This document shows positions 14,334-46,055 of a DNA stretch of 64,000 nucleotides, in pieces. The stretch is taken from NCBI RefSeq assembly GCF_963675165.1, contig NC_087384.1, positions 669,001 through 733,000 of the forward strand, given 5' to 3'. Each line of letters opens with the position of its first letter. The first letter of the stretch is position 1. Origin of the DNA: Halichondria panicea (Eukaryota > Porifera > Demospongiae > Suberitida > Halichondriidae). Under the pieces are notes generated by a model that saw only the letters and a list, made by a program, of their open reading frames with translations, had not been told where the DNA came from and searched no databases. The position numbers and the translations under genes are program-made.

Positions 14334-14625
14334 AAGACAATTAACCATTTGCTTGTATATAATTATGTACATGTATATGTAATGTTTGTTTCTGGTAATA
14401 ATATTTATATTTGTATACAGTGTATATGGTTTTTATTGCAATTTTTTGTGCTTTGTTATGTTATGATGATTACAATGTGTACACAAAAGACTGTTAACGA
14501 AGTGACATCTGTTGTAAGGTATTATCAGGGGAATTCCCTTACAGGCCACTTATACGCCTACTTATACAAGCCTTACAAGAAGCTTTGTGGTAGAGCTACA
14601 AGCTATAGCTCTGAGCTCAGTAATT
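14334..14625. other. Intergenic region, channel to sulfotransferase
   Basis: The region holds the channel 3' UTR with an AATAAA that overlaps the stop codon region (GGAATAAAAG at 14328-14337), then AT-rich DNA leading to the sulfotransferase. No gene is visible. Confidence 0.6.
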
Positions 14626-16524: not shown

Positions 16525-16844
16525 TATTGTTGTTGAGCTTCAAAGTTGAGTTGAGATGAGAGAGAGATTTGTGATGGCCTTCATGTTGAGTTAGCCGCTT
16601 TTACGAGCATAAACACCCACTCGGATCACATTGTGAGGATCAATTCTTCAGCATCCAATCAGATTCACTAAAACTACACGACCGCATTCGAAAACAGGGC
16701 CACTACTACAACCTAATCACGTTTATCTGATCTGATCTGATCCATTCAGTGGTAGCTAAATACTTGACCACCCAACTGTGGACCCATTCTGGTTTCATCA
16801 ATTTCCACAACTCTACAACTTACAACTTACAACTTAACAACAAT
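16525..16844. promoter_or_regulatory. Bidirectional H2A/H2B promoter
   Basis: The 320 bp between the two ATGs contain a CCAATC box (16655-16660) and an AT-rich TAAATAC stretch about 90 bp before the H2B ATG that could serve as a TATA element. Head-to-head H2A/H2B spacing of this kind is widespread in animals and supports coordinated S-phase expression. Confidence 0.7.
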
Positions 16845-17216
16845 ATGCCTGGAAAAGTAGCATCCAAGAAAGGAGAGAAAAAGGCTGCCATCAAGAGCAA
16901 GCCGAGTGGTGAAAAGAAAACCCGAAGAAAGTCTCGCAAAGAAAGCTATTCTATCTACATCTACAAAGTTCTGAAGCAAGTCCACCCCGATACTGGCATC
17001 TCTTCCAAGGCTATGAGCATCATGAACTCATTTGTTAACGATATCTTTGAGAGAGTAGCGACTGAATCATCACGTCTGGCCCACTACAACAAGAAACACA
17101 CAGTCTCTAGCAGGGAGATACAAACTGCAGTCAGACTACACCTCCCTGGAGAACTGTCTAAGCATGCCGTCTCTGAGGGTACCAAGGCTGTCACCAAGTA
17201 CACAAGCAGCAAATAA
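16845..17216 (+). CDS. H2B: Histone H2B
   Basis: The ATG at 16845 begins [15 protein letters not shown]; the in-frame ATG at 16749 would add a non-histone leader and lies in the promoter, so I reject it. The 123-residue protein has the basic N-tail, the [19 protein letters not shown] helix and the AVTKYTSSK end. One unusual residue is the His in VRLHLPGEL, where most H2Bs have Leu. No canonical histone stem-loop is visible within about 120 bp downstream. An AATAAA overlaps the stop (AGCAAATAAACTG), so the transcript may be polyadenylated. Confidence 0.97.
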
Positions 17217-20400: not shown

Positions 20401-23400
20401 AGACCCCTCACCAGTCTAGCAGGGGGTGGGCAAGCACACACGTAATTATATATGGACACGTAGGCTGTATAATGTGTACAGCTACTGTACGTATGGAACA
20501 TTTCTGAATTACAAATTTGAATGCATTGTATTAATACCAAGAGTATAATATGACAGAGAAGAGAGTATCGAACGTTGATAGATTACATCACCCACACGCT
20601 TGGATTGGTCAGTGAGAAAATTCCAAGCTTGTGACAGATATAGGAAGTCACATTACTCTCCGCATACATCTGATGTACAGTACGCCTACGTTCGATACTC
20701 TCTTCTCTATTATAATTTATACTCTTGGTGGGAGTCACATAAAATAATTGTTCTGTGTGTTTGTGTTACTTGGTGTCAGTGTCAGTCCTGTGCATCATCT
20801 GCATGATCTCGACCATGTGCAGGTCAATGGGCACGTTGGGACCACGCTGCACAGCCAACACTGCATCAACCACCACCTGTGTGGGCAGAGATAGAGAAAC
20901 AATAATGTCTGAACTGAAACCAATATGAGAATAGGCTAGGCATATAATTCAATAGGCCTATAATGCAAACAAACCAAAATTTATACAGGTCGCACAATAC
21001 ATACATGTAGATATATTGAAGTGTGTACATGCAGAATACAGTGTCAAGCTAGAAAATATATAGCTAGGGATGTTTCTCATATATACCAGTAGTACTGTGG
21101 GGTAGACTCCCCGTAGTAGCTAGCACATGTATACAGTTTGTACGATGCACAGACCTCAGTGAGAATGGTTGCCACTTGTTTGGATAGCTTGGTGCAGAGA
21201 GAGGTCCTGGCCACACAGATGAGTGTCTCCCTGTCCATCTCCTTGGAGACCTTCACACTCTCCAATACCTGTGTATGTGTGGTGGATGAAGGCATGTAAT
21301 AAATTATGTAATAAAAGAGCAAAGAGGCTTTTTTACAGAAGGCACAAGCAAACACCACACACAAATTTAAATAGAATTCATAATTATGGTTGTATGCATA
21401 ACGTAATCATAGGTGTGGTTAATTTCAAAAATGGGCGAGCCTCATGTGTTTTAAAAGTGAAGCACTTATTTTAGCACAAAAATGGAAATCGAGATAGATA
21501 CTCTAATCTCCCAAAAAGTGAAGGTGACTCTGACCAACTGGGTACGCTTGAGCAACGCCCCCCTCCTCCTAACGAGAGCATCAGCCGTTCAATGGAATGA
21601 CTATGTCTTTGTGCTAGCTAGTGACGGTACAACACTTCTCTACCACAGCAAACACAATATGTGGTCGATGCTGTCTAAGTCACCCCATACAAGTGTCAAC
21701 CTTGCCCCGGCCTTGACCCTCTATAATGACAGAATTATCACGATGTCTGAGAGAGGAGAAATGTCTACATTTGATTCCCAACTGTGCCAGTGGACAATGG
21801 TTAAAGATATGAATATGTCCGAGGGTAGGGGACCACGAATCATTGCCAGTGACAACAACATTCTCTACTCTGTTGTCGACTTTAAATCAAAAGGGCAGCA
21901 AAAACAAGCCCGAAAAGGAGGACCGCTACAGTTTGAGCTTGTCGCACAAACGGTCAGCCCTAAACACACTGACTGCACTGTCTTCTCGTACAACACAAGC
22001 TCTAAATGGGAGAAGATCTGTGAGATCAGATCAAGCCCTCTCCAATCTGCAGCAGTGGTTGGTGGAACCTTGTTTGTCCTTGCTGGACAAGAAATGTTCA
22101 AATTGACTCTGCCAGTAGAACTAAAAATGGCTACAACCAAAGGTGGCAGTATATCTAAAACCAACGCTACCGCAACCGCCAGCACTCATCGGGGTGGGGT
22201 CCAGAGGGCCGCCAACATATTTTACTGGAAATCCCCTCCCCCGCGAGAGTATTCCTAGAAACCTACCCCCCCAACAACAACAACCGATACTACAGTCCAC
22301 AATAGCCTGTGCCAGTCCTATGTACGCGGGATCAACTCTCCACGCCACTAAAGATACTCTATTCTCTTTCGGAGGGCGGGACAAAGACAACCTGACGTGT
22401 TACGATATAACCCCGACACTGACACCTGGGAGAGTGCCGGCTACATGAGGAGTGCTCGCTACAATGTTGCTGCGGTAACCGTACAAGATACGATAATGAA
22501 TGTGATTGTGCTAGGAGGAAGCCTCGGAAGCAGTGAGCATATCATGACGCAACGACAAGTACACAGTGATCCTGTAGTAATACACGATCCCTCACCTCCT
22601 CCTCCTACCTGGGACAACAAGACGAGCATTGTAGAAAAATGCACAGTCAACTAAACAGTGTACATGAACTACATACTATCAGTGTATACACAACTAAAGA
22701 GATTTATTTTGTGAATGTTAGTTATACAAGCCAGTTCTCCCAACCATGTAATGCATATAACGTACCTACAAATACAAAACAAATAATGGTATTGGTCCAT
22801 GGATAACGGATAGGCTATTAACACACATGAAACGCCTGCAGTCAACTGAACATTATACATGCATATTATAAGATCTAATATATCCACACTCTCTAACACC
22901 TGTGTATGTGTGGTGGACGAGGTTATGTGAAATAGCACATGCACATTGTATTGTTAACTGAACCGAAACAATAGTTCAATGGTGTTTTCATTACTGAGTG
23001 GTTGTGGCACTTAGGGTCGTCCCGAAGGCCTTAATGGGCTCATGTGATCTCAAGTGATCTACATGACTTGTGTGCATCATTAAGTGGTTTAACTACACAG
23101 CCAACACAAGATGGAGGATTATAGTACCCACTTCCAGGGAACAAAAGTGACTCTGACCAACTGGGTACGCCTGAACAACGCCCCCCTCCTCCTACCAAGA
23201 GCATCAGCTGTCCAATGGAATGACTTCGTCTTTGTGCTAGCTAGTGACGATACAGCACTGCTCTACCACAGGAAACATAACATCTGGTCCATGCTGCCTA
23301 AGTCACCCTATAGCTACTTCAACCTCACCCCGGCCTTGACTCTCCATAATGGCCAGATTCTCACGATGTCTGCAAATGGAGAAGTATCCACGTTTAATCC

Positions 23401-26400
23401 CCAGCTGTGCCGGTGGGCAGTGCTTCATGACATGCGTATGGAAGTGGGCAACAGACCGAGACTCCTTGTCAGTTCCAACAACATTCTCTACTCTGTTGTT
23501 GACTTTAAAACACGAGTGCAGCAAGTGCAGCAAGAACAAGGCCTACATGGAGGAGGGCTAAAGCTAGGAAGAGGGCCGCTAGGAGGAGTGCTACCACAAA
23601 ATTTCGGCCAACAACAAGCTTCCTCCAGACACACCGACAGCACTGTATTCTTGTACAACTCAAAATCTAAGTGGGTAAAAATCAATGAGATTGGATCCAG
23701 TCCTCTTAAATCTGCAGCAGTGGTTGATGGAACCTTATTTGTTCTAGCTGGACAAGATATGTTCAAATTGACTCTGCCAGCGGAAACAAAGGTGGCAGCA
23801 AATCCAAAACTAGAAAGTAACACAAAGCTAGCTACAGCAGCGCAAACAGTCACTGGGCTCTTTAGTACGCAAGCAGGAACAAGATCACCGTTTGGAATAA
23901 ACGCCATTCCCCCCCAGAAAGTGCCTAGAAACCAACCAGTCCCACAACAAGTACTACAATCCGCGACAGCCTGTGCCAGTCCTATGTACGCGGGATCAAC
24001 CCTCCACGCCATTAAAGATACTCTCTTCTCTTTCGGAGGGCGGGACGAGGACAACCAACCAACATCTGACGTGTTACGATATAACCCCGACACTGACACC
24101 TGGGAGAGTGCCGGCTACATGAGGAGCTGTAGATACAATGTTGCTGTGGCAACCGTACAAGATACGACAATGGATGTGATTGTGCTAGGAGGCAGCCTCG
24201 GAAGCAGTGAGCATATCATGACGCAACAAGTGCGCCCTCCAAGTAAACCTGTAGTACAGGATTTATTTGGAAATTATGGTCCACAGTTGGTAGCCCCTCC
24301 ATCTCCCTCCCCTCCTACCTGGGACAACAAGACCAGCATCATAGAGAAATGCACAGTCAACTAAACAGTGTACACTAGCTACATGTAAGACTAGCGTATA
24401 GAAAATATAAATTTGTAGCGAAGAATGAATTGCCATTAATTTTGATAAGATAATTTCAATCATGTGATCCAAACAAAAACATTGTACAAACCGAAGATAC
24501 AAAAAAATGTTGGCAGGTGGAAATAATGACAATAAACTAAGAGATTGAATGAGTATTATGATTAACACAGTGTGTGGCCGCTGTATTATTATGTAGAAGT
24601 TAATTAACATATCAGACAATAATTATGGTACAATATACACGATGTACAATGACAATTATTGTACTCCGTCCAATGGAATGATTACATCAAAATAATATGA
24701 ACGTGACAGCTGTACATGTAGCAATCAATACAGTAGTCTAGCAACGAGTGTATTGGGTATGACTCAACCGAAAATGTGCTGTAAAATAGGCCAACAAAAT
24801 TATGTACACTGCAGCTAATTTAGCAATTACAAGCTCATTGTGTATGTAAGAGAACACGTACCATATAAGTTCCGGCAATTGTTCCGGCAATTGAACAATT
24901 CATATTATTGTACAGTGGCACAATCAATCATGTGATCTGCAAATTTAGCTCTTGGCTAAAAATGGCTAGTGACAAAAAGTCTAAAGCGGTACTTCGTTTT
25001 CACAAATCACCAGTTGCAATCAACATAAGACTAAAGACAACAGTGACTCTGACCAACTGGGTACGCCTGAACAATGCCCCCCTCCTCCTACCGAGAGCAT
25101 CAGCCGTCCAATGGAATGACTACATCTTTGTGCTAGCTAGTGATGGCACAGCATTGCTCTACCATGCTACAAATGCTATGTGGTCTGTTCTAATAAGCTG
25201 CAACGAAACACTGCCACCAGAAGGTCCCCCACCACTAGCCCTGTACAAAGGTGAAGTCATAACTGTATCCATCAATGGGACGGTGTTATGTTATAGTAAA
25301 CGTGCAAGTCAGTGGAAGGAGTGTCCTGAGCTTAAAATGGATTTAAAATACAGCTACATTCACTCCATTGCAATGATGAGTGATAGAAACAACTTGTATG
25401 TTATCATGTACTATGGTAGCCGATCAAATCCAATTTATGGCTCTCAGGCATGCCATGTCTTTAGCTACAGCTCTGGTCATAGTTGGGAAAAGATCAGTGA
25501 TATGGAAGCTCCACGCAGTATCACCTTTAAATCAGCAGCACTGGCTGGCTCTTCCCTATACATTCAATCAGGGAAAAAGATACACAAGCTAGCAATCGAA
25601 GGCTTGAAAACTGCCGAGCTGGTACCGGAGCTATCACCAGCAAAGAAACAAAAAACAGAAGAATTCGTGCAAATGACATCACCAAACATGCCTCCTTTAA
25701 AAGGATCAACTCTTCACGCCATTAACAACGAGCTATTCTCTTTCGGAGGGCGGGACGAGAACAACCAACCAACATCTGACGTGTTACGATATAACCCCGA
25801 CACTGACACCTGGGAGAGTGCCGGCTACTTGAGGAGTGCTCGCTACAATGTTGCTGTGGCAAACGTTGAGATTGATACGAAGAAAGAAGTTTTTGTACTC
25901 GGAGGAAGCTTTGGGAGCAAGAGCTTACAGACACCGCTCAAGGTACATGCACCATCGACAATATCAAGCACGACATCATCGAACGATGATTGGGAATGTT
26001 CCACATCGATGATGGAGAAGTGTGTAGTATAGTGACTATAGTGCTGACTTACTGTATAGTTAATAATTATAATACATGACTGGTAGCATCAAGATAGTAA
26101 TTGTATGCGTATACAGTAATGCAGGCAGTTAGTGTTTCAGTCAATATTATAAACATACTTGAGTAAACTAAGAACATACAAACACTTAATTACTAGATGC
26201 AGGACATTATCAATGAATTCACTCACTGCAACTATACACACGATTAGTTACACCCACTTTTAGTTCAAAATCACGAAACAAGAGCGGCAATGGTAAGTAA
26301 CGCAGTATCATATAATAATAAAATTAGTCAATGACATATCTTTGTATTCCATCACAGGCTTCACTAGACCCTCCCCCTGTCACACCATCGAAGGTGACTC

Positions 26401-29400
26401 TGACCAACTGGGTACGCCTGAACAACGCCCCCCTCCTCCTACCGAGAGCATCAGCCGTCCAATGGAATGACTACGTTTTTGTTCTAGCTAGTGACGGTAC
26501 AACACTGCTATATCGCAACAAACATGATATGTGGTCCATGCTGTCTAAATCACCCTATACAAGTGACAACCTTGCCTCAGCCTTGACCCTGCATAAAGGC
26601 AGAATTCTGACGATGTCTTTGAAAGGAGAAGTGTCTACATTTGATTCCAAGCTGTGCCAGTGGACTGCGCTTAAAGATATGAACATGTCCGAGGATAGTG
26701 GACCACGAATCATTGTCACTGACAATAACATTCTCTACTCTGTTGTCAACTTAAAATCATCGGTACAGCAACGACAACATGTTAGTGGGTTAAACCAACA
26801 AGCTAGCCAGTGCACTGTATTCTCGTATGATCCAAGCTCTAAGTGGGTAAAAATCTGTGAGTTTGGATCAAGCCCTCTCAAATCTGCAGCAGTGGTTGGT
26901 GGAACCTTGTTTGTTCATACTGGACAAGAAATGTTCAAATTGACTCAGCCAACACAACTAACAATGCAGTAGAAACGAAAGTGGTAGCAAATCCAAAACT
27001 AGAAGAAAATACAAAGCTACCATCAGCGCAAATAACCACTGAGTTTAAATTAGGTACGCAAGCACCGGCCACCTTCATTGCACAAGCACCAACAGTACAA
27101 TCTACTAGAATTTCTGGAAAACAAACCATCTTCCCCAAAAGATTCCTGGAAACATATTCACTCCACAGTTCGCGACAGCTTGTGCCAGTCCTGCGTATGC
27201 GGGATCAACTCTCCATGCCATTAAAGATACTCTCTTTTCTATCGGAGGGCGGGACGAGGACAATCAACCAACATCTGACGTGTTACGATATAACCCCGAC
27301 ACTGACACCTGGGAGAGTGCCGGCTACATGAGGAGTGCTCGCTACAATGTTGCTGTGGCAACTGTACAAGATACGACAATGGATGTGATCGTGCTAGGAG
27401 GGAGCCTCGGAAGCAGTGAGCATATCATGACGCAACGACTGAACCTGCCAAATGAACCTGTAGTACAGGCATCTTCTAATGGTGGTTTGTTCGGCCGGCC
27501 ATCCCCACAACGTCCTCCTACCTGGGACAACAAGACTAGCATCATAGAGAAATGCACAGTCAACTAAACTAAGAACTACACATACAACTAGCTAGTGTTT
27601 AAATATGTAGCAAATATTTTATGTTGTGGGATTGCCTTTTATAGTAGTGATTAAATGTATTTTAAAATTTGTAGCTATAATTATAGTAGAATCGCCATTT
27701 AATAGTCATCATAAATTATGTGATGCAAACAAAAAAGCGCTATTAAAAAAAATGCAGGCACGTGATTGAATGAATGTCTATTGTTAATAATTAACACAGC
27801 GTGTGGCATGTATGTGAAGCAATTAATACAGTAGTCTAGCAACGAGTGTATCGGTTATCATTCAACTAGAAATATGCTGTGAAGTGAGGCCAACACAATT
27901 ATGTACACTGCAGACCATTTAGTAATTACAAAACTCATTGTACGCACACAACAATTGAACACAAACTAAGTTCAGTTGAGCAATTCAATTTTGTATCTAG
28001 TAGTACATGCACTTGAAACGCAAACCACTACGTACAATATCGTGGCATGAAAACAGTAAGAGGCATGAATATAGGGTTTGTACATAAAATACAATGTAGC
28101 AACCATTTTAATATTCATATTTAGATTAAAAAATAACTGTGTGGTTGCGTATATAAACAAATACATCATAAATATTGGGTATTTCCCAACATGGGCTCAG
28201 GTGACCTAAATTATTCTCCACATGGTTAGCTAAATACACAACAGAAGTCAAGATGGATACACACTCTCCAACCTCCTCCAAGAAATCGAAGGTGACTCTG
28301 ACCAACTGGGTACGCCTAAACAACGCCCCCCCTCCTCCTACCGAGATGATACATACTCTCTTTCGGAGGGCATGACGAGGACAACCAACCAACATCTGAC
28401 GTGTTACGATATAACCCCGACACTGACACCTGGGAGAGTGCCGGCTACATGAGGAGCTGTAGATACAATGTTGCTGTGGCAACCGTACAAGATACGACAA
28501 TGAATGTGATCGTGCTAGGAGGAAGTATAAAATTATACCCAAAACATACATTGAATCTTTGCGCTACAATTTGTACGCTGGTAGTACACATACATATGTA
28601 GCATACATGTACACTGTTCAATTGACTGTGCATTTTTCTACAATGCTGGTTTTCTACAATGCTTACATCACTTTCTACTGCCCGCTCTGTCATAGGGAAC
28701 TCACTGCTACGTAGTGGTTTGCGTTTCAAGTGCATGTACTACTAGATACAAAATTGAATTGCTCAACTGAACTTAGTTTGTGTTCAATTGTTGTGTGCGT
28801 ACAATGAGTTTTGTAATTACTAAATGGTCTGCAGTGTACATAATTGTGTTGGCCTCACTTCACAGCATATTTCAAGTTGAATGATAACCGATACACTCGT
28901 TGCTAGCAGTGAGTTCCCTATGACAGAGCGGGCAGTAGAAAGTGATGTAAGCATTGTAGAAAACCAGCATTGTAGAAAAATGCACAGTCAATTGAACAGT
29001 GTACATGCATGCTACATATGTATGTGTACTACCAGCGTACAAATTGTAGTGCAAAGATTCAATGTATGTTTTGGGTATAATTTTATAGTCAAGTCAACAA
29101 CATTTTCTCTCAACCATGTGGCACACACATGTATATTGTACAAATACAACTAAGAAAATGAAAGTGGTAGGCAGATCCACTGCATCGCATAAGCTAGTAC
29201 AGTGACTTCAATATTGTCGTGTGTGTAAATAGATAACTAAGATACTATCGACATGGCGACCAATTTTTGTTACAAATGGCCCTCCATAAGATACGACAAC
29301 AGTGCCTAGCAAACTAGCATGAAGAGCTTATTAATTAAAATAATGATCGACAACATTCTAATACAGTATCGTCAGATTACATCCATGTATACTGGTAGCT

Positions 29401-38400: not shown

Positions 38401-41400
38401 ACATGGAGCACACCTTGTCCGGGAAGTGTATTTCAATGAATTCACTCACTGCAACTGTACACACGATTAGTTACACCCACTTTTAGTTCAAAATCACGAA
38501 ACAAGAGCGGCAATGGTAAGTAACGCAGTATCATATAATAATAAAATTATCGTGATTACTATAATTATAATCAATGACATATCTTTGTATTCTATCACAG
38601 GCTTCACTAGACCCTCCCCCTGTCACACCATCGAAGGTGACTCTGACCAACTGGGTACGCCTGAACAACGCCCCTCTCCTCCTACCGAGAGCATCAGCCG
38701 TCCAATGGAATGACTACGTCTTCGTGCTAGCTAGTGACAGTACAGCACTGCTCTATCATGCTAAACACGGGATGTGGTCCATGCTACCAAAATGTCCGAT
38801 CGAGCAACTCGATGGTGCTCCACCAATAACAGTGCACAAAGGAAAGGTTGTCACACTTTTTTGCTGAACCCCAGTGAACCCTATTCAGTTAGGAGATATG
38901 CTTGCTACAAATGTTGAGAGCACTGCATCTTTCATATACATCTGGGCGAGTTCTAACCAGGACCTCAGCTGGAGAAACACTATAGCTAGCCATAGAGACC
39001 TTGAGCAACGTACAGAGCTAGCTAAACAGTCAGTTACAAGCGTTCTACAAGCCTAGAGTTTGTCGTGGCAAGGTCGCGATAAACTGCCAGCTAAGCAAAC
39101 GTCATCACAACGGAATTTAATTAAAAAAAGTGTCGTACCTCCTCTAGACCAGCATTATAGAGAAATGCACAGTCAACTAAACTAAGAACAAAACATACAA
39201 CTAGCTAGTGTTTAAATTTGTAGCAAAGATTATATATTGTGGGATTGCCATATATAGTCACATTTATTTTCTTTCAATCACGTGATGCGAACCCAAGAGC
39301 TACAGCAAAAAAAAGGCAGGTGGATACAATGACAATAAAGAGATTGCATGTACTGTAACATGTGCACACATTAAGTGCAGTAAACTGAAACAAAACAAAC
39401 ATTACGCAATAATTATTACACAACTATAAATAAAAATAACTGATTTTATTGCCATTTATGACTAACAGCTATCTCAATCATGTGATACATACATAACATG
39501 GTATATATAATTAGCATGTGAGTAACTTTTAAAGCTCTACAACAAGAACAATAAGAATGGTAGGTGAAGAATGACGATGATAGTGACTACAAAGTGATTG
39601 ATAATGTACTAATATTCATAGGCCACTTTCTACTTCGGCTCAAAAACGATAGAACTGACCAACTGGGTACGCCTGAACAACGCCCCCCTCCTCCTACCGA
39701 GAGCATCAGCCGTCCAATGGAATGACTACATCTTCGTGCTAGCTAGTGATGGCACAGCACTGCTCTATCATACTACAAATGACATGTGGTCTGTTCTAAT
39801 AAGCTGCAACGAAACACTACCACCAGAAGGTCCCCCACCACTAGCCCTGTACAAAGGTGAAGTCCTAACAGCATCCATCAATGGGACGGTGCTGCGTTAT
39901 AGTAAACGTGGAAGTCAGTGGAATGAGTGTCCGGAGCTTAAAATCCATTTATATTACAGGAACACTTACTCTATTGCAATGATGAGTGATAGAAGCAACT
40001 TGTATGTTATCATGTACTGCGGTAGCCAACCCAAACCAAGAGGTTTATTATTCAGCTTTCAGGAATCTTGCCACGTCTTTAGCTACAGCTCTGGCCATAG
40101 TTGGGAACAGATCGGTCACATTCGAGATTCACATAATGGTTCCCTTGAATCAGCAGCACTGGCTGGCTCTTCCTTATACATTCAATATGGGGGGAAGATG
40201 TACAAACTAGCAATCAAAGGCTTGAAAACTACCAAGCTAGTATCACCAGCAAAGAAGCAAAAAACAGAGCGAATGACAACACCAAAAATACCTCCTCAAA
40301 GAGGATCCACTCTCCACGCCATTTACGACGAGCTATTCTCTTTCGGAGGGCGGGACAAAGACAACCAACCAACATCTGACGTGTTACGATATAACACCGA
40401 CACTGACACCTGGGAGAGTGCCGGCTACATGAGGAGCTGTAGATACAATGTTGCTGTGGCAAACATTGAGATTGGTATGAAGAAAGAAGTTTTCGTACTT
40501 GGAGGAAGCTTTGGGAGCAAGAGCTTACATACACCGCTCAAGGTACATACACCGACAACATCAAGCACGACATCATCGAACGATGATTGGGAATGTTCCA
40601 CCTCGATGATGGAGACGTGTGCAGTAGTACAAAGTTACTGATTTACTGTATACAGTATATGTAGTTGTTATTGATGTTTAAGATAGAGACATATTGCACA
40701 GCTTTTGCAAACAGATCAAGATAGTTTTGTAACAATATACAATTCTCGATAAAATTGCTATTACTTGCCTATACAATGAGACTACAGTAATCAATTAACG
40801 AATACATTTCCTATTATAGCCCCAGCCAGACAAGACAAGGAGTACACACTAATCATCAGATTACTACATTCAGCAGTTCCCCCTTTTGAAATAATTTGGC
40901 AGCTGCGTATGTACATGTAGCAAGCAATGAGTTAGACAATTATCAGTATATAGGGATCTAATGCAGGTAATTAGTGTTTGAGCCATATTATGCCTCCGTT
41001 GCGCATGTGCAGCCAAGGTATACGATAGTGTGTGTGTGTGTGTAGACTGCTGCAGCTGCTCAAGGATCAATAAAGTGCAAGTAAGAGTCTCTATAGGCTT
41101 CTAGTCATGTTTTCTTGGTTTGCTATTTTTACATTTGCAAAATAATGCTTGGTTCTTGAGATATGCCTAGTTTTGCTTACTTGGAATGCTATTGCAGCCT
41201 TTTCAGAAGAGTGCGTAGCAAAACTTGTTCACCGAGTGTTGCTACTCTACTTAGTAGTTAGCTCTGCACTAGAACGCTAGCTATTGGTAGCTGCAAGAGT
41301 GAGAAGAGAGCTGCAGCCATTAATTTTAGACTTTTGGCATCCCTTTAGCAACAATCATTTCACACTCTTTGAGTTTCTGCCTTGCTGCAGAAATTTTTAA

Positions 41401-44400
41401 GCAAACATTTTTAATGCACGTGTGTATTAGCAATAGCTTTATGTTATGTAGGTTTGGCACATCCACCGAGGCATCAGCACCCGCGGTGCTTTCATTATAT
41501 CCGTGAGCTAAGAGCATAACTGACAGTCAAATACAGTTTTAGATGCTAGACTAACGAGAACATGCCATTATCAATGAATTCACTCACTGCAACTATACAC
41601 ACGATTAGTAGTTACACCCACTTTTATAAGAATCACGAAACAAGAGCAATGGTAAGTAACGCAGTATCATACAATAACATTACTAGTCACTGACATCTTT
41701 GTATTCTATCACAGGCTTCACTAGACCCTCCCCCTGTCACACCATCGAAGGTGACTCTGACCAACTGGGTACGCCTGAACAACGCCCCCCTCCTCCTACC
41801 GAGAGCATCAGCCGTCCAATGGAATGACTACGTCTTCGTGCTAGCTAGTGATGGCACAGCACTTCTCTATCATGCTAAACTAAAGCTATGGTCTATGCTA
41901 CCAAAATGCCCGTATCATCTGAAGGAAAATGTACCGCTAGTCAACTATGAAGGGAAGATTCTAGCAGTCAGCAATCGTTCACAGATATGTGCTTTTGACG
42001 CTCCTACTAGTAGTTGGAAGGAGGAATCTGGACCAACAGTAGAGGAGATTATCCACATGGCTGTCAATCACGATACTCTACATGTGTATGCATGGGTCAC
42101 AAAGTCAACCGGTTACATGTTCGGTAAACAAGGTAAAGCTGCTCTGTTCACACTGACCACTGAAGGATGGGAAGAACACGATATTTACATCCAACGATAT
42201 GCTTCAAAACTTCTGCTTACATCAAAACACATTTTTGTAGAAACTGCTAATTCAAAAGGCATTTATTGCCAGAAATTCAAAAAGACTTCAGAAAGTGAAG
42301 CCGAATCAGACGATACACCAATCGAGCCACCCAAAGAGATAGCTCCTCCCCCCTACAAGGCGTTCACTCTGCACGTGCTGAAAGACACGCTACTTTCGTT
42401 CGGAGGGCATGACGAGGACAACCAACCAACCTCTGACGTGTTACGATATAACCCCGACACTGACACCTGGGAGAGTGCCGGCTACATGAGGAGTGCTCGC
42501 TACAATGTTGCTGTGGTAACCGTACAACAAGACACAACTACAGAGGTCTACGTGCTAGGAGGAGAATTTGGAAGCACCAAACTGAAAATGAAACCCAAGC
42601 TGTATGTACAAACACAAGCATGTACACGTACGCATAATATTATGCATGCTTTTGTATCTACACAAGCACAAGCTACACGTAAATCTACACAAGCACAACA
42701 AGCACCAGCTGACTGGGACTGCTCCACAAGCATTGTTGAAAAATGCACACTGTCAGATTGAAGCTACATGTACGAACCAACTGTATACACACTAGCTAGC
42801 AGCATATGAATTAAACTATACTTGTCTAATGTATGTTACATATTGTATTGATTTGATTCACACTGATCGCATATTACTGAGACGTACGACTAATTACCAT
42901 AAATGTCTCAACAACAGCACCACTCTGACAGATATCTCATTTGTTTTAAGCATGGCATGTTTAACGTGAAGAGCAATAGTATAATTATATGACATTGTAT
43001 GAGCATGGAAGCTACTGTGAGCAGTAACTAACTGAGGCAATGAAACTAAACTAGAGTCATGCTGATAGTCAGTATTACTGGTTGCACTACCATAATGTGA
43101 TAGTGTTGCCATATTATGGCAATTGAGGCGGACATTTTAGTGGTGCACGATTGATCACATGCATTGGGACTAGGATCACATGCAGCAGAGCTAGAACGAA
43201 TCATAATAGAGTCTTCCTATGAAACGAATAAGGCTCTCCCACATGACTGTCCCACATGACTGTATCAAGCAATTACAAAATTCTGTCACTTAAACACATA
43301 ATAGTAATTGTACACGAATATAGGAATAGTTATCATACATGTAACCCGCTAACAATACTACATGTTATCGTACCACATGACACAATCAATCATGTGATTC
43401 CATTCGACAAAAAAAGCTCAAATTTCAGAAGCTAAAGAACAAGAAAATGGTAATCGAGTGACAATAATCTACAATACTTATATGCGAGCATAAAATATTG
43501 TGTTTTTTGGTCAATTATAAGGATACTGCAATTAATATTATTTCCTTGTAAACCCCGCGATTTCAATGGGGATTGTATAGGGTTCGAATAAAGGTGTGAT
43601 ACAAATTTTTGCAGCTGCTTGCATAAATAGCATTAGTTAGTATCACTCATACATAAGCTCATACTGTACTCTTCACACTCAGGCCTCTCTCGACCCAGCG
43701 GACAGCAGCACAAGTGTGCCAGAGAAAAAGGTGACTCTGACCAACTGGGTACGCCTGAACAACGCCCCCCTCCTCCAACCGAGAGCATCAGCCGTCCAAT
43801 GGAATGACTACGTCTTTGTGCTAGCTAGTGACGGTACAGCACTGCTCTATCATACTAAGCTAAAGCTATGGTCTATGCTACCAAAATGCCCGTACAGAAT
43901 GACAAGTAATGTACCGCTAGTCAACTATAAAGGAGAGATTCATGCAGCCAGCTCTTATTCAGGGATGTTTGCTTTTGACGTCGCTACTAGTAGCTGGAAG
44001 AATCTATCCAAGCCAGCAGAAGGGGAGATTATAAGCATTGCAGTCAACGGCAACGCACTACATGCATACATGTATGTATGCATAAAAACTAAGTCAACGC
44101 AAACGTATCCACCACAAACACCTGCTCTGTTCTTGCAGACAATAAAAGAGTGGAAAAAACAAGACCTTGGTGTCAATGAGCTCGGTTCAAAAATCCTACT
44201 AACGTCAAAACACCTGTTCATAGAAACTAATAAAGTCATTTATCGCCAGAAAATCAGCAATGCTTTTGAACCAATCGAGCCACCCAAAGAGATAGCTCCT
44301 CCCCCCTACAAGGCGTTCACTCTGCATGTACTGAAAGACACGCTACTTTCGTTCGGAGGGCGGGACGAGGACAACCAACCAACATCTGACGTGTTACGAT

Positions 44401-46055
44401 ATAACCCCGACACTGACACCTGGGAGAGTGCCGGCTACATGAGGAGTGCTCGCTACAATGTTGCTGTGGCAACCGTACAACAAGACACAACTACGGAGGT
44501 CTACGTGCTAGGAGGAGAATTTGGAAGCACCAAACTGAAAATGACACCCAAGCTACATGTACAAACAGAAGCATGTACACGTACGCATGCTAAATCTAAA
44601 ATGACACCCAAGCTGCATACAAGTATTGAGCCAACGCCTACTGATAAAACACCAGCTAACTGGGACTGCTCCACAAGCATAATTGAAAAATGCACACTGT
44701 CAGATTGAAGCTATATGCACGTACGTACCAACTGTATACACTAGCTAGAAGCGCATACAAAACTACACGTATGTTATAGATTGTATTGTATTATAGCCAA
44801 AATGTTACTTATGAACCATAAATTGTACTCGGACAGTTGCTTTGATAATTGTTAGACCCCAGTTATAACCCACGATCACCTAAGGGCCTCGGGTTAATCA
44901 ACCAACAGAAAGTTTTCAAAAACAGGCTTAAAAATCAACTTTTATTTTAATATGCCATCTTATACATGTAGCTCTAGGTAAAATCATAAAATCAAACCCG
45001 TAATTATTATGGGCACTCAAAGGATGGATACACATTCGTTCCCTAGGTGATAGTGCTGACACTACACCCTCACACTATATTGTACATTCATTTATTATAC
45101 TGCATTTCAGGACATCTATTGTAATCAGGACAATTATTACTTGTGAATAATTACCGTAAACGTCTGTATTAAAGTACCCTCTAAATATAAGCACCACTCA
45201 AACATTTTTTAGTACATCGCAACAGTTAGTACATCGCAACAGTTAGTACATCGCAACAGTTAGTACATCGCAACAGTTAGTACATCGCTACAGTTAGTAC
45301 ATCGCTACAGTTAGTACATCGCAACAGTTAGTACATCGCTACAGTTAGTACATCGCAACAGTTAGTACAGTTATTTAGTGGTGCTTTAAAATTATTAATT
45401 CAGACGTTTACTAAGGTAATGCATTACCTGGAGAGCTTTTCCCTTAGCCTTCTCAAATCCCTCAGTGATGATCCTCGGGTGGAGTCCCTCAGAGACATAG
45501 AGGTCGGCTTGCTTCAGCAACTCTCCGATAATCAGCACATTGGAGGTGGTACCATCTCCCGTGATGTCATCCTGTGTGTGGAGTGGGTGGGGGTAGAGGT
45601 GTGTGAGTTGTGGAGTGGGTGGGGTAAATGTGTGAGGGTGGAGTGGGTGGAGCTTACCTGGGCCGTGGCTACTCTTGCAATCAGTGAAGCTGTGGGGTGT
45701 TGGATTTGCTGCAAGGAGATAGTTTATTTTTATTTTATTTTTTTTATTTTTTTATGCGTGTGGATAGTACACCAATATTTATACCAGTACTGACCATTTC
45801 ATGGAGCAAGACGTTGCCGTCTTTGGTCAGTTTAATGTCTCCAGCTCCAGACACAAGCCTGAGGGGGGAGGGTACGAAACCATTTAATTATCGGAACATT
45901 GGTGTACGGAATAACCACATTTTCATGGTTCCCTTGGGTCCCAGGTTTGTCCTGAGCACATCTTGCAGACCTCTGGCAGCTGAGATGTTCACTTGAAGTG
46001 CTTGAGCAGCTCTGGCGACCTCTGCCTTGGGATTTAGGGATTTTATTGCAGCCAT
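17419..46055 (-). CDS. CCT6: T-complex chaperonin subunit zeta (CCT6)
   Basis: Seventeen exons sum to 1608 nt, 535 aa. Exons 1-4 are 46055-45919, 45858-45795, 45708-45658 and 45571-45428. Exons 5-17 are 21268-21155, 20876-20770, 20415-20305, 20247-20133, 20057-20013, 19957-19875, 19636-19540, 19241-19175, 19033-18846, 18794-18708, 18006-17958, 17841-17769 and 17494-17419. The protein starts [20 protein letters not shown], contains the chaperonin motifs LGPKG, GDGTTSN and VVPGGGA, and ends [12 protein letters not shown]6 is one of eight subunits of the cytosolic TRiC ring that folds actin, tubulin and WD proteins. Exon 4 ends KALQ and exon 5 begins [12 protein letters not shown] in the same phase (0), as in other CCT6 proteins, so both halves belong to one gene. 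Intron 4 is about 24.2 kb and holds the kelch array on the other strand; all other introns are below 1 kb. Confidence 0.93.
18130..18500. repeat. Foldback repeat in CCT6 intron 14 (family F1)
   Basis: The left arm contains TTTTCTGAAAGCTT then GACCTTTCAAATGG; the right arm contains CATTTGAAAGGCC then AAGCTTTCAGAAAAT. The centre has ACCATGGATTATAGCCCATGG. Related copies lie at about 50690-50960 and 52860-53200. There is no reading frame. It behaves as a dispersed imperfect palindrome of about 330 bp. Confidence 0.85.
19315..19545. repeat. ~50-60-bp tandem repeats that include the CCT6 exon 11 donor
   Basis: Five tandem units contain GTGGGTGGGTGGTCTCAC, CACACCATGCTATCACATAT and neighbouring bases. 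The last unit contains the genuine donor of exon 11 (exon end 19540), and earlier units repeat the same boundary in decayed form (for example CTCACCAGCACACC at about 19440). Confidence 0.8.
21482..22654 (+). pseudogene. Kelch gene 1 (core type A), frameshifted
   Basis: Starts [20 protein letters not shown] and follows a type A core ([21 protein letters not shown]). The frame closes at 22258 within the variable linker. A second break is a 10-nt deletion in the otherwise invariant segment after GGRDKDN (about 22390), where other copies read NQPTSDVL. The rest of the C-terminal module is intact to KCTVN. At least two frame changes make it a pseudogene unless they are sequence errors. It lies 214 bp from CCT6 exon 5, at the edge of the array. 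Confidence 0.85.
22658..23110. other. Spacer with an echo of CCT6 exon 5
   Basis: At about 22884-22930 the stretch CACACTCTCTAACACCTGTGTATGTGTGGTGGA copies the CCT6 exon 5 acceptor region at 21253-21288. The minus-strand reading there is HTQVLESV, the same as the true exon start. The remainder is AT-rich spacer and presumed kelch-2 promoter. Confidence 0.75.
23111..24364 (+). CDS. Kelch-repeat propeller protein 2 (core type A)
   Basis: A single open exon of 417 aa starts [18 protein letters not shown]. The N-terminal blade reads [20 protein letters not shown]. The type A core includes [10 protein letters not shown], and the linker is Gly/Gln-rich and unusually long (about residues 138-170). 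The C-terminal module has the diglycine kelch motif [18 protein letters not shown], then [11 protein letters not shown] and [11 protein letters not shown], and ends [10 protein letters not shown]. No signal peptide, transmembrane segment, BTB or BACK domain is visible, so it is a kelch-only protein, probably cytosolic and possibly six-bladed. Kelch propellers bind other proteins; the partner is unknown. Confidence 0.85.
   Translation: MEDYSTHFQGTKVTLTNWVRLNNAPLLLPRASAVQWNDFVFVLASDDTALLYHRKHNIWSMLPKSPYSYFNLTPALTLHNGQILTMSANGEVSTFNPQLCRWAVLHDMRMEVGNRPRLLVSSNNILYSVVDFKTRVQQVQQEQGLHGGGLKLGRGPLGGVLPQNFGQQQASSRHTDSTVFLYNSKSKWVKINEIGSSPLKSAAVVDGTLFVLAGQDMFKLTLPAETKVAANPKLESNTKLATAAQTVTGLFSTQAGTRSPFGINAIPPQKVPRNQPVPQQVLQSATACASPMYAGSTLHAIKDTLFSFGGRDEDNQPTSDVLRYNPDTDTWESAGYMRSCRYNVAVATVQDTTMDVIVLGGSLGSSEHIMTQQVRPPSKPVVQDLFGNYGPQLVAPPSPSPPTWDNKTSIIEKCTVN
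24365..24961. other. Kelch 2-3 spacer, shared 3' and 5' array sequence
   Basis: The first part (GATAATTTCAATCATGTGATCC and following bases) recurs after kelch 6 (about 31010). The end carries the promoter class shared with kelch 7 and 14 (CAATCATGTGAT, then GCTAAAAATGG). No independent gene is visible. Confidence 0.6.
24962..26032 (+). CDS. Kelch-repeat propeller protein 3 (core type B)
   Basis: I choose the ATG at 24962 ([13 protein letters not shown]), because its context matches the start of kelch 7; an upstream in-frame ATG at 24908 falls in the shared promoter. This gives 356 aa. The N-terminal blade ([20 protein letters not shown]) and C-terminal module ([17 protein letters not shown]) are near-identical to the others. 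The core is type B, with [15 protein letters not shown] and [13 protein letters not shown]. It ends in [11 protein letters not shown]. In kelch 7 the ATG is followed by GTGAGTGACAAA, an intron donor; here the same bases read GCTAGTGACAAA, so the donor GT is lost and the sequence is read as protein. Confidence 0.85.
   Translation: MASDKKSKAVLRFHKSPVAINIRLKTTVTLTNWVRLNNAPLLLPRASAVQWNDYIFVLASDGTALLYHATNAMWSVLISCNETLPPEGPPPLALYKGEVITVSINGTVLCYSKRASQWKECPELKMDLKYSYIHSIAMMSDRNNLYVIMYYGSRSNPIYGSQACHVFSYSSGHSWEKISDMEAPRSITFKSAALAGSSLYIQSGKKIHKLAIEGLKTAELVPELSPAKKQKTEEFVQMTSPNMPPLKGSTLHAINNELFSFGGRDENNQPTSDVLRYNPDTDTWESAGYLRSARYNVAVANVEIDTKKEVFVLGGSFGSKSLQTPLKVHAPSTISSTTSSNDDWECSTSMMEKCVV
26215..26291 (+). 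promoter_or_regulatory. Shared kelch 5' cassette (with kelch 4)
   Basis: The block GAATTCACTCACTGCAAC, then ACACGATTAGTTACACCCAC, then CACGAAACAAGAGC, precedes the ATG-only exon. It recurs before kelch 10 (about 37080-37152), kelch 11 (about 38435-38512) and kelch 13 (about 41573-41648), each of a different core type. It is the presumed core promoter and 5' UTR. Confidence 0.7.
26292..27567 (+). pseudogene. Kelch gene 4 (core type A), frameshifted
   Basis: The first exon ends with ATG at 26292-26294, followed at once by the donor GTAAGT; exon 2 starts at 26358 with GCTTCACTAGACCC, in frame ([12 protein letters not shown]). The type A core is open to 26972, where a stop follows [10 protein letters not shown]. 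The linker continues in a second frame ([16 protein letters not shown]), and the C-terminal module is open in a third frame to KCTVN. At least two frameshifts separate the parts. Sequence outside these is well preserved, so inactivation looks recent. Confidence 0.85.
27836..29088. repeat. Compound inverted duplication around kelch relic 5
   Basis: Arm A (about 27836-28035) reappears inverted at about 28708-28907. Arm B' (about 28525-28706) reappears inverted at about 28908-29088. The order is A, kelch 5 fragment, B', A', B; B' and B form a long inverted repeat with A' as the loop. Arm B derives from a kelch 3' end (TERAVESD then KMHSQ in the plus direction). Arm identity looks very high by eye. 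Confidence 0.85.
28253..28530 (+). pseudogene. Kelch gene 5, internally deleted relic
   Basis: The start (ATGGATACACACTCTCC) and N-terminal blade to APP are present, with an extra C in the C-run. The sequence then jumps straight into the C-terminal module just before the GGRD site, in another frame, so the entire core and linker are missing. The module runs to VIVLGGS and is cut by the inverted duplication at about 28525. Confidence 0.9.
29089..29795. other. Array spacer
   Basis: AT-rich DNA. About 29520-29585 resembles 22830-22890 of the first spacer. The last 60 bp (ACACAACAGAAGTCAAG before the ATG) match the 5' end of kelch 5. No gene is visible. Confidence 0.5.
29796..30938 (+). CDS. Kelch-repeat propeller protein 6 (core type A)
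   Basis: A single open exon of 380 aa starts [19 protein letters not shown]. Type A core features are [20 protein letters not shown] and [12 protein letters not shown]. The linker after VQQQH is Gly-rich (about residues 143-165). The C-terminal module [18 protein letters not shown] is intact and the protein ends [10 protein letters not shown]. As in the other copies there is no targeting signal. It is one of the complete copies and lacks the 5' intron. Confidence 0.85.
   Translation: MDTYSPTSSKKSKVTLTNWVRLNNAPLLLPRASAVQWNDYVFVLARDGTALLYHSKHNMWSMVSKSPYTSVNLAPALTLHNSRILTMSVNGEVSTFDSQLCQWTMVKDMNMSEGRGPRIIASDNNILYSVVDFKSQVQQQHVIGGIRLVGGGGLQLGGGLYQQASECTVFSYDPSSKWEKICEIGSSPLKSAAVVGRTLFVQAGEKMFKLTMPAQLKMATNQKIDDFSKPITTGLNFGFPPPQRLLHSATACASPTYAGSTLHAIKDTLFSFGGRDGDNQPTSDVLRYNPDTDTWESAGYMRSCRYNVAVATAQDTTMDVIVLGGSLGSSAHIMTQRLNPPSEHVVQSQPCSGLQLGTSPPPSPPTWDNKTSIIEKCTFN
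31098..31257. mobile_element. MITE-like element, TACCGTATAGCGGGT ends (family M1)
   Basis: Left end TACCGTATAGCGGGTGTATT pairs with right end AATATACCCGCTATACGATA. About 160 bp, no coding sequence. A relative with the same GTATAGCGGGT termini is at 33612-33821. Confidence 0.8.
31540..32755 (+). pseudogene. Kelch gene 7 (core type C), one-base frame break near the start
   Basis: ATG at 31540-31542 is followed directly by the donor GTGAGT; exon 2 begins at 31596 ([13 protein letters not shown]). In the A-run at 31634-31641 one base fewer is present than needed, compared with kelch 14, so the frame meets TGA two codons later. From 31643 the rest is open for 370 codons: N-blade [18 protein letters not shown], type C core ([27 protein letters not shown]), C-module [14 protein letters not shown], end [10 protein letters not shown]. 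The break is in a homopolymer and may be an assembly or sequencing error; if so this is an intact gene. Confidence 0.75.
32756..33429. other. Array spacer containing a 135-bp hairpin element
   Basis: No gene is visible. At 33048-33182 GTTAGACACTGTTTTG pairs with CAAAACAGTGTCTAAC, and the arms continue inward (TTTAGAAGCCC with GGGCTTCTAAA, TTTAGTACCC with GGATACTAAA) to a TCGCTACGCTCG loop. This is a near-perfect foldback MITE. Confidence 0.85.
33430..33480 (+). pseudogene. Kelch 5'-end relic
   Basis: ATGGCGTCCAAGATGGATAC and the following CACTCCTCCCCCCTCC match the first codons of kelch 5, 6 and 9, then homology stops within GAAGGTG. It is a start without a body. Confidence 0.75.
33612..33821. 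mobile_element. MITE-like element, family M1, 210 bp
   Basis: Left end TATCGTATAGCGGGTAATTT pairs with right end AAATTACCCGCTATACGGTA. The inner arms also pair (TCGTGGGGTAAAA with TTTTACCCCACGA). No coding sequence. Confidence 0.85.
33934..34961 (+). pseudogene. Kelch gene 8 (core type C), frameshifted and without a start exon
   Basis: Exon 2 begins at 33934 after a good acceptor (TCTAACACAG), with the [12 protein letters not shown] lead, but the ATG-GTAAGT exon expected upstream is not recognisable. The invariant Trp of SAVQWNDY is Cys here. The type C core is open to 34464; from about 34430 the frame changes to the one that carries [13 protein letters not shown] and the complete C-terminal module ([14 protein letters not shown]) to EKCAVE. 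A deletion relative to kelch 7 explains the shift. Confidence 0.8.
34962..35312. promoter_or_regulatory. Kelch 9 upstream region, similar to kelch 1 upstream
   Basis: About 35150-35300 (GAAGAGGCTTTTTTACAGAAG, then TTTAAATAGAATTCATAA, then ATGGGCGAGCC) matches 21320-21480, between CCT6 exon 5 and kelch 1. The two genes therefore share a 5' region. Confidence 0.7.
35313..36455 (+). CDS. Kelch-repeat propeller protein 9 (core type A)
   Basis: A single open exon of 380 aa starts [19 protein letters not shown]. The type A core includes [20 protein letters not shown] and [12 protein letters not shown]. The linker after QVQQEYEQI is short and unlike those of kelch 2 and 6. The C-module is [18 protein letters not shown], with the end region TERAVESD then SIVEKCTVN; that end is the source-type of inverted arm B at 28908. 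No targeting signals. Confidence 0.85.
   Translation: MDTHSPTSSQKSKVTLTNWVRLSNAPLLLSRASAVQWNDYVFVLASDGRALFYHSKHNIWSMLPKSPYTSANLAPALTLYKGRILTTSVNGEMSTFDSQLCQWTVVKDLNLFEGSGPRIIASDNNILYSVVDFKTQVQQEYEQIRRSDNFRQVSYKHTECTVFSYDPSSKWEKICEIGSSPLKSAAVVGGTLFVHAGQDMFKLTQPVQPEVAANPKLEINTILPSAQTTTELNFGMQALAVSHTGINAHNIPRNLPPQGQLQSATACASPTYAGSTLHAIKETLFSFGGRDKDNQPTSDVLRYNPDTDTWESAGYMRSARYNVAVAIVQDTIIDVIVLGGSFGSSEHIMTERAVESDSKTTPIRPPWNNMTSIVEKCTVN
36456..37152. other. Array spacer with a 27-bp kelch relic
   Basis: At 36724-36750 the bases CACGTCTTTGTGCTAGCTAG reproduce the VFVLAS stretch of the N-terminal blade, isolated in non-coding DNA. The end of the spacer is the shared 5' cassette. Otherwise no gene. 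Confidence 0.65.
37153..38254 (+). CDS. Kelch-repeat gene 10 (core type B), start disrupted
   Basis: The cassette ATG at 37153-37155 is followed by the donor GTAAGT, but the acceptor seen in kelch 4, 11 and 13 is deleted, and a 25-bp near-palindrome (AGGACGTAC with CACGTCCT arms) is inserted in the lead region. Splicing the ATG to the AGs I tried gives an early stop or wrong frame. From 37268 the body is open for 328 codons: [17 protein letters not shown], type B core ([25 protein letters not shown]), C-module [14 protein letters not shown], end TSMMEKCPV. The body is preserved, so either another start is used or the loss is recent. Confidence 0.7.
38384..38432. repeat. Short hairpin, AATACACTTCCC arms
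   Basis: AATACACTTCCC (38384-38395) pairs with GGGAAGTGTATT (38421-38432). Decayed relatives lie near 36850 and 40800 (ACAAGGAATAC, AATACATTTCC), also after type B kelch genes. Confidence 0.65.
38513..39180 (+). pseudogene. Kelch gene 11 (core type C), truncated
   Basis: ATG at 38513-38515 ends exon 1; exon 2 starts at 38601 in frame with the [12 protein letters not shown] lead and N-blade. The type C core stops at 38867 within HKGKVVTLF, where foreign sequence begins (about 38870-39145). Only the last bases of a kelch gene (CATTATAGAGAAATGCACAGTC region, 39148-39180) return. The insert contains GTGTCGTACCTCCTCTAG, also present at the end of the element in PSPH intron 5, which suggests a transposon-linked deletion. 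Confidence 0.85.
39557..40641 (+). CDS. Kelch-repeat propeller protein 12 (core type B)
   Basis: ATG at 39557-39559 is followed by the donor GTAGGT; the acceptor TTCATAG precedes exon 2 at 39622, which reads [18 protein letters not shown] in frame. Together 340 aa. The lead peptide is unlike the other copies, and the invariant KVTLTNW is here TIELTNW. The type B core has [12 protein letters not shown] and [13 protein letters not shown]. The C-module is [17 protein letters not shown]. The end is longer than usual ([11 protein letters not shown]). No targeting signal; complete copy. Confidence 0.82.
40642..41648. repeat. Array spacer with a dispersed repeat (family R1)
   Basis: About 40980-41515 contains a repeat-like unit sharing CTATAGGCTTCTAG and a GCTAGCT...GGTAGCTGCAA...GAGCTGCA run with 58640-58980 in HPD intron 7. 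No protein match is recognisable. The end of the spacer (41573-41648) is the shared kelch 5' cassette. Confidence 0.6.
41649..42761 (+). CDS. Kelch-repeat propeller protein 13 (core type D)
   Basis: ATG at 41649-41651, donor GTAAGT, and exon 2 from 41715 in frame ([12 protein letters not shown]); 349 aa. The type D core is distinct: [29 protein letters not shown], then [15 protein letters not shown]. The linker ends in [20 protein letters not shown], also found in kelch 14. The C-module has [14 protein letters not shown] (His in place of Arg), [15 protein letters not shown], a Thr/Gln/Ala-rich tail and [14 protein letters not shown] complete copy with the same 5' cassette as kelch 4, 10 and 11. 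Confidence 0.85.
42762..43446. other. Spacer and kelch 14 promoter
   Basis: No gene is visible. The last 80 bp (CACATGACACAATCAATCAT, then GCTCAAATTTCAGAAGCTAAA) match the region before kelch 7 and, in part, kelch 3, so they define a second promoter class in the array. Confidence 0.6.
43447..44708 (+). CDS. Kelch-repeat propeller protein 14 (core type D)
   Basis: ATG at 43447-43449 is followed by GTAATC; exon 2 starts at 43683 in frame ([16 protein letters not shown]), giving 342 aa. The N-blade has one change (PLLQPRA). The type D core has [17 protein letters not shown] and [11 protein letters not shown], then [20 protein letters not shown] and [14 protein letters not shown]. The tail repeats a KMTPKLH motif and ends [12 protein letters not shown]. 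It uses the kelch 7 promoter class with a different core from kelch 7. Complete copy and the last of the array, about 720 bp from CCT6 exon 4. Confidence 0.85.
45151..45419. mobile_element. Inverted-repeat element with 17-bp minisatellite, abutting the CCT6 exon 4 donor
   Basis: Nine tandem units of AGTACATCGCAACAGTT (45211-45363, A/T variants at one position) lie between inverted ends: left TTACCGTAAACGTCTGTATT ... AAGCACCACT and right AGTGGTGCTT ... CAGACGTTTACTAAGGTAA. The right end is 8 nt from the last base of CCT6 exon 4 (45428), and the donor lies in GGTAATGCATTACC, itself a palindrome. Confidence 0.85.

Follow-up and report, generated by a model that had tools for sequence, protein, structure and literature searches.

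A tandem array of kelch propeller genes in Halichondria panicea is likely to be an old, kinase-less side branch of the kinase-linked kelch proteins of the same genome, with four core types, a short C-island that has undergone gene conversion and an N-island that probably has as well. The array is found in the window, i.e., the whole stretch of 64,000 nt that was analysed (C8:669001-733000), and its copies, given with their types, are in the order 1A, 2A, 3B, 4A, 5 (a relic), 6A, 7C, 8C, 9A, 10B, 11C, 12B, 13D, 14D. Its features are as follows, in window coordinates with the exception of the distant copy 15.

21482..44708, + strand: kelch array, 14 same-strand copies
21482..22654, + strand: copy 1, type A, frame broken; N anchor at 21524, C anchor at 22394, in-frame stops at codons 244 and 275
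23111..24364, + strand: copy 2, type A, open, 417 aa; Pfam Kelch_1 9.2e-13
24023..24151, + strand: C-island (blade 5/6 junction) as found in copy 2, 129 bp, alike across types, with two haplotypes that differ at five sites
24962..26032, + strand: copy 3, type B, open from an in-frame ATG
26200..26393, + strand: 5′ leader/promoter segment of copy 4, matching copies 8, 10, 11 and 13 (types C, B, C and D)
26290..27567, + strand: copy 4, type A core, frame broken, with the above 5′ segment
28225..28526, + strand: copy 5, relic; a copy 6-like leader and the start of the N-island, then the C-island, without a core
29796..30938, + strand: copy 6, type A, open, 380 aa
29835..29939, + strand: N-island (blade 1) as found in copy 6, 105 bp, alike across types
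31643..32755, + strand: copy 7, type C, open from the N-island onward, in-frame start not found
33970..34961, + strand: copy 8, type C, frame broken, in-frame start not found
34643..34787, + strand: conversion tract in copy 8, 145 bp, type A (copy 9-like) sequence in a type C gene
35313..36455, + strand: copy 9, type A, open, 380 aa
37268..38254, + strand: copy 10, type B, open from the N-island onward, in-frame start not found
38513..38867, + strand: copy 11, type C, truncated past the N part, without a C-island
39557..40641, + strand: copy 12, type B, open; ATG start exon, then a predicted intron of 62 bp; alternative ATG at 39498
41649..42761, + strand: copy 13, type D, open; predicted ATG-only start exon (41649-41651) followed by an intron of 63 bp
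43447..44708, + strand: copy 14, type D, open; predicted ATG-only start exon (43447-43449) followed by an intron of 233 bp
C8:1493934-1495952, - strand: copy 15 (locus L009), type A, frame of 677 codons

The first-pass annotation of this DNA was correct in its coordinates, its number of copies, their types and their order, as judged from anchors, a core tree and core identities. There are 14 N anchors in the array, 13 of which (the relic included) show at least 6 of 7 residues, with copy 12 showing 5 of 7, and 13 C anchors, copy 11 being without one. In the core tree, whose rows are 12 array copies and copy 15 with copies 5 and 11 omitted, types A, B, C and D each fall on one side of a branch with a support of 100/99 or 100/100. 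Core protein identity, counted on the nine array copies that are open from the N-island onward, is 0.25 between types (0.18-0.31, 29 pairs) vs 0.68 within types (7 pairs). Thus the four dissimilar core types claimed earlier also stand, with approximately 25% protein identity between types and each type a supported clade.

An in-frame ATG opens copies 2, 3, 6 and 9. A start exon consisting of the ATG only is predicted in copies 12, 13 and 14, and the same kind is found in copies 4 and 11, which are broken further downstream. As read by eye, a run of A in copy 7 lacks one base, and the start intron of copy 10 no longer has its acceptor. Copies 1, 4 and 8 are frame broken, copy 5 has no core and copy 11 lacks its second half; with these five copies decayed and no in-frame start found in copies 7 and 10, a complete gene model is present in 7 of the 14 array copies. 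The same breaks and missing starts would be expected of a decaying tandem array with no special role, in which kelch duplicates undergo ordinary conversion and drift to pseudogenes; the evidence on the other side of this explanation is given below with the analysis of selection.

Other sequence features were noticed in and around the array. Copy 3 begins with coding sequence where copy 7 has its start intron (window 24956-25042 vs 31560-31642, by eye), and the start intron may have turned coding in copy 3. Around relic copy 5 (window 27836-29087) there are inverted pairs of 184-199 bp with 98.9-99.5% identity, 27836-28034 with 28708-28906 and 28526-28709 with 28904-29087, which perhaps represent a young mobile element or a recent inverted duplication. 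Upstream of the array are an open sulfotransferase-like frame (14587-15927, Pfam 1.1e-6) and an intronless core histone (16749-17216, 2.5e-21) that is H2B-like by eye. Elsewhere in the genome, loci L031 (C2:659041) and L032 (C6:200195) carry silicatein-like exons with serine replacing the catalytic cysteine, a replacement that marks silicateins and points to a siliceous sponge; ordinary cathepsin-like frames are also present.

The N-island and C-island are nearly identical across core types at the DNA level, with a between-type nucleotide identity within the array of 0.931 (61 pairs) and 0.915 (55 pairs), respectively. A DNA search of the 131-Mb genome (39 contigs) gave 15 sites for the N-island and 14 for the C-island, all of them in the array or in copy 15. 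Synonymous divergence (pS) between types was followed in 15-codon windows along 303 codon columns having at most one gap among 10 rows, with nine array copies counted. It is 0.07, 0.09 and 0.19 in the windows that begin at codons 0, 10 and 20, rises to 0.42 from codon 30 and to 0.62-0.94 in windows from codons 40-190, and is 0.50 from codon 200. It then falls to 0.19, 0.08 and 0.24 in the windows from codons 210-230, and rises again to 0.49 from codon 240 and 0.70-0.83 from codons 250-280. The last 54-80 codons, past the C-island, are again type-specific. The first-pass annotation described constant N- and C-terminal ends, even in the DNA; two near-identical stretches do exist, but they are islands and not ends, the second being followed by a type-specific tail.

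Within and between types the islands diverge alike at synonymous sites. N-island pS is 0.142 within types (17 pairs) and 0.141 between types (61 pairs), and C-island pS is 0.165 (11 pairs) and 0.192 (55 pairs); in these counts the relic is treated as a type of its own, so that its pairs fall among the between-type pairs, and the C-island counts are without copy 1, whose frame is broken, and copy 11, which has no C-island. Thus the record of type has been largely lost from the island sequences. The islands also differ in composition, with a GC3 of 0.61 and 0.59 vs 0.39 in the core and 0.44 in the tail, and the islands are above the core in 10 of 10 copies.

Gene conversion across types is well supported at the C-island. 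The C-island tree (12 copies) rejects single clades for type A (AU p 0.0047), type B (0.0023) and type C (1.3e-5), and type D is a clade both there and in the core tree. Two haplotypes with five differing sites within 7 bp can be read by eye close to where the C-island ends. Copies 2, 5, 6, 7, 10 and 12 carry haplotype 1, and copies 1, 3, 4, 8, 9, 13, 14 and 15 carry haplotype 2; both are present in each of types A, B and C, and 4 changes are needed on the core tree. In copy 8, which is type C on both flanks of the tract, copy 9, the next gene and of type A, is matched at 27 of 27 informative sites inside the tract and at 21 of 151 outside it. None of 500 shuffles was as strong, a post hoc count inasmuch as copy 8 was chosen for this assay once its pair with copy 9 stood out.

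At the N-island the conflict is weaker. The N-island tree (14 copies) has no starred branch, and type A is weakly rejected as a clade (AU p 0.028); types B, C and D are not rejected (AU p 0.20, 0.14 and 0.064), though no type forms a clade. Congruent trees of ends and cores had been named at the outset as the finding that would speak against exchange; the C-island is incongruent with types A, B and C, and the N-island conflicts only weakly with the core types. Low pS, tree conflict and raised GC3, the signs by which regional conversion is recognised, are all found at the C-island, and the N-island shows the first and the last of these. Low synonymous divergence, together with the swapped 5′ segments described below, suggests that the N-island has probably been homogenised likewise. 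Thus the earlier proposal of gene conversion or unequal exchange at the ends of the genes is strongly upheld in the case of C-island conversion and less firmly for the N-island, with “ends” to be replaced by islands. The more general picture, of a family built from modules whose copies exchange sequence and have short homogenised blocks, is supported by the C-island tree conflict, the haplotypes and the copy 8 tract.

The islands might instead be conserved in their nucleotides as a functional DNA or RNA element, e.g., an enhancer or a splicing element, without conversion. Their absence from all other genome sites and the weak conflict between the N-island tree and the types are in accord with such an element. 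The distant copy 15 bears on this as well. It lies 0.78 Mb off the array in inverted orientation, and its N-island pS to the array is 0.163-0.164, where array copies among themselves show 0.141-0.142; for the C-island the values are 0.23-0.28 and 0.17-0.19. The low N-island pS of copy 15 is not predicted by conversion among neighbours and counts against the conversion reading. However, the C-island of copy 7 is the most diverged of all (mean pS of 0.37 to the rest) with its protein nearly kept, and thus these synonymous sites are free to change. The haplotypes and the copy 8 tract are transfers and not stasis, and the raised GC3 fits conversion. These arguments bear mostly on the C-island, and nucleotide-level constraint is accordingly disfavoured there and less so at the N-island; as an explanation of both islands it is quite improbable.

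Copy 15 is also unusual in its length, with 662 residues from the shared start vs 367-405 in the open type A copies of the array. The surplus of about 260-295 codons is a frame-keeping repetitive insertion in one loop, at a site that matches short glycine-rich stretches in copies 2 and 6.

Exchange is also found in front of the coding regions, in a form absent from the first-pass annotation. Comparison of the 300-bp upstream stretches of 15 copies gave 20 matching pairs, of which 11 are cross-type, 6 are same-type and 3 involve the relic. One kind of segment precedes cores of type A (copy 4), B (copy 10), C (copies 8 and 11) and D (copy 13), and the segment of copy 4 matches none of the other type A copies. 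A second kind precedes type C (copy 7), type D (copy 14) and, weakly, type B (copy 3), and a third is found upstream of type A and the relic only. Copies 4 and 13 have 313 bp in common at 91%, a stretch that spans the leader and the N-island. When placed on the core tree the segment kinds require 5 changes, with labels assigned by hand to 11 of the 13 tree rows and copy 3 labelled on a 67% match. Thus 5′ leader/promoter segments common to different core types are supported; the same kinds of segment stand before different cores, which indicates that leaders and cores have come together in new combinations, joined within or close to the N-island.

Selection was assayed from pairwise dN/dS within types A, B and D, with 2-4 copies per type and copy 10 in two of the pairs; between types, synonymous sites are near saturation, and thus between-type pairs cannot be judged. 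Core dN/dS is 0.43-0.76 and is below 1 in 10 of 10 pairs; the bootstrap interval stays under 1 in seven and passes 1 in three (6/9, 10/12 and 13/14). The 51-codon block that holds the C-island has a dN/dS of 0.07-0.49, its interval staying below 1 in all but one of the 10 pairs, and by type the block shows 0.12-0.33 vs 0.54-0.67 in the cores. N-island values are 0.08-0.88, with few differences there. Thus the cores are constrained, if loosely, and diversifying selection is unsupported: none was found on the cores in within-type pairs of types A, B and D. The suggestion that the binding face diversifies in the middle of these proteins is not borne out by these values. The explanation of the array as mere decay also has to contend with them, since the interval is under 1 for most pairs of both C-island block and core, and with the open frames in copies 2, 3, 6, 9, 12, 13 and 14 as well as in copy 15. 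We regard decay without a special role as unlikely.

The four cores had been described as exchangeable, and one can ask whether they were recently grafted between near-identical genes by core swapping under diversifying selection, as at a recognition locus. Constant stretches do stand beside four unlike cores, and the shared 5′ segments show that junctions occur near the N-island. However, each core type keeps its own tail, and the two regions are both close to saturation between types. No donor is seen either: protein searches of the genome with the B, C and D cores gave 9, 12 and 4 matches, all of them in the array or copy 15, and a search with the whole of copy 2 gave, among the 100 scored of 211 candidates, only weak kelch matches beyond the array and copy 15 (best E 5.8e-6). 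The linkage of core and tail, with cores B, C and D unmatched elsewhere in the genome, suggests that the cores are old fixed types. With core dN/dS as given above, recent grafting is very improbable.

The Kelch_1 motif is found in all five array proteins given to Pfam (28.8-55.2 bits vs a cut-off of 20.1), and from its sequence each array protein can be read as about six blades. No match to a BTB, BACK or kinase domain was detected by Pfam in the same five proteins (BTB and BACK up to an E of 1), and no kinase was seen by eye among + strand frames of at least 70 aa across the array. There are 19 BACK matches in the genome, none of them on C8. With BLAST, the best other match of all 10 proteins compared is to the kelch frames of the kinase-linked loci L020-L023, ahead of BACK loci, in a comparison that covered the ORFs of 10 loci, 6 of the 19 BACK loci among them, and in which the kelch parts of BACK loci may be split by introns. 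A profile of the array matches the kinase-linked family with a probability of 96.6% over 61 columns, in the blade 5/6 part only. In the PDB the best natural matches of copy 3 are KLHL20, KLHL17, NS1-binding protein and KEAP1, after designed SAKe propellers. Thus kelch motifs are shared with BTB-BACK-kelch proteins such as KEAP1 and KLHL, but the array proteins are without a BTB or BACK match, and an origin of the array from BTB-kelch genes is disfavoured, the kinase-linked kelch exons being closer. The closest kelch domain is that of the kinase-linked genes (L020-L023, L060 and L061), from which the array proteins differ in having no kinase match.

The kinase-linked kelch family is very large. 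A search with a one-exon query found at least 131 kelch exons with 83-100% identity (131 scored of 465 candidates), most of the matches scored being on C1 and C6. Kelch exons are seen in tandem at C1:10.98-11.03 Mb and 15.48-17.39 Mb, at C6:0.48-0.79 Mb, and on C12 and C28. Loci L022 and L023 each have the kinase and kelch domains in one frame, separated by a stretch that is coiled-coil-like by eye. In the neighbouring loci L060 and L061 a Death-like frame is followed by kinase, spacer and kelch frames, all within 3.5 kb and on the same strand; the layout was read at these two loci from frames and not from splice structure, and L020 has a kinase nearby. Assignment of the Death-like exon to the Death domain is weak. 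Its first copy has no Pfam match up to an E of 0.1 (PF00531 at 0.12), the second matches PF00531 with an E of 0.0064 and 17.0 bits, below the cut-off of 22.6, and in the PDB FADD chains appear at an E of 0.77-1.1, behind an unrelated chain at 0.0088. With these sub-threshold PF00531 and FADD matches, “Death-like” is therefore a weak label.

Variation in this family is concentrated at two positions per blade. In 58 of the 131 exons, the residue after GG ranks 2, 4, 8, 11, 15 and 21 by entropy among 297 columns over the six blades, and one d-a loop residue per blade ranks 1, 5, 6, 7, 9 and 14; the d-a columns were picked by entropy after the fact, and the after-GG columns were set by the motif once the pattern had been seen in 20 copies. 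The six after-GG columns show a pN of 0.50 and a pS of 0.16, with 0.066 and 0.080 in the remainder. Hypervariable positions on the d-a and b-c loops are characteristic of propeller recognition repertoires, and the kinase-linked family shows this pattern; it is likely to be a recognition repertoire with a hypervariable predicted binding face. In contrast, the loop positions of blades 5, 6 and 1 are nearly constant in the array, at sites matching the hypervariable ones of the kinase-linked family. The first-pass annotation likened the array itself to recognition families; that comparison fits the kinase-linked family better, where the strong signature is found.

We propose that the array is a birth-and-death array of kelch propeller genes without BTB and without kinase. 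Ectopic gene conversion has passed the C-island between core types, with blades 2-4 and the tail following type. The N-island (blade 1) would be homogenised in the same manner and form the joint where leaders and cores re-assort, a step of which we are less sure. Conversion presumably persists only where copies still match, so that islands would last and diverged cores escape, and purifying selection on the island protein could add to this persistence.

The role of the array proteins can be considered only tentatively. Blades 5, 6 and 1, which would be adjacent in a closed propeller, may make up a docking half common to all copies, with blades 2-4 as four fixed halves that are each specific to a ligand, the proteins serving as free intracellular adaptors or decoys next to the kinase-linked kelch proteins; this possibility is one that we entertain but do not favour. 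On a wider and similarly doubtful scheme, the array could be a soluble offshoot of a recognition system of sponges that is so far undescribed. That system would comprise the at least 131 kelch exons, belonging to Death-like/kinase/kelch genes where the layout was read, and about two free positions per blade (d-a loop and after GG) on a six-bladed face might amount to a ligand code of twelve positions. The array on C8 would supply adaptors or decoys with a common docking half kept uniform by gene conversion. To our knowledge, how sponges distinguish self or microbes is an open question, and the kinase-linked family to which the array led is a testable candidate for such discrimination.

A literature search, with subscription journals mostly outside its scope, found no report on a sponge kelch array or on a kinase-kelch repertoire, which does not establish novelty. 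Kelch genes are mentioned in the available parts of two sponge papers (PMC6208332, PMC11000336), and the word kelch is absent from a third (PMC5450542).

The array has parallels among known systems. In the clustered protocadherins of fish (PMC1852091), regional conversion homogenises synonymous sites and raises GC3 and the specificity part is diverged; in the fugu clusters raised GC3 was taken as a sign of gene conversion. The homogenised part there is the 3′ region (EC4-EC6), and positive selection is cited for EC2/EC3. The kelch array is similar in its tandem paralogs, with one region converted, raised GC3 and a divergent remainder. However, the proteins are unrelated, and the array has islands of 105 and 129 bp, a type-specific tail and no positive selection seen in its cores. 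The WD40 propellers of NWD, HET-D and HET-E in Podospora, according to PMC1805685, undergo concerted evolution with pseudogenes taking part in exchange; in these allorecognition proteins the exchange is of repeat units, and positive selection acts on four codons located at the d-a loop and b-c turn. Both these and the array are propeller genes with concerted evolution, but the array is of kelch type and its blades 5, 6 and 1 are without such a loop pattern. The kinase-linked kelch family is closer to the Podospora propellers in its variable loop sites, but on a kelch scaffold joined to kinases. Thus regional gene conversion with a divergent remainder is already known from protocadherins and similar clusters, and here it occurs on a kelch propeller array, in islands of just 105-129 bp, together with the sharing of start-exon/promoter segments across core types.
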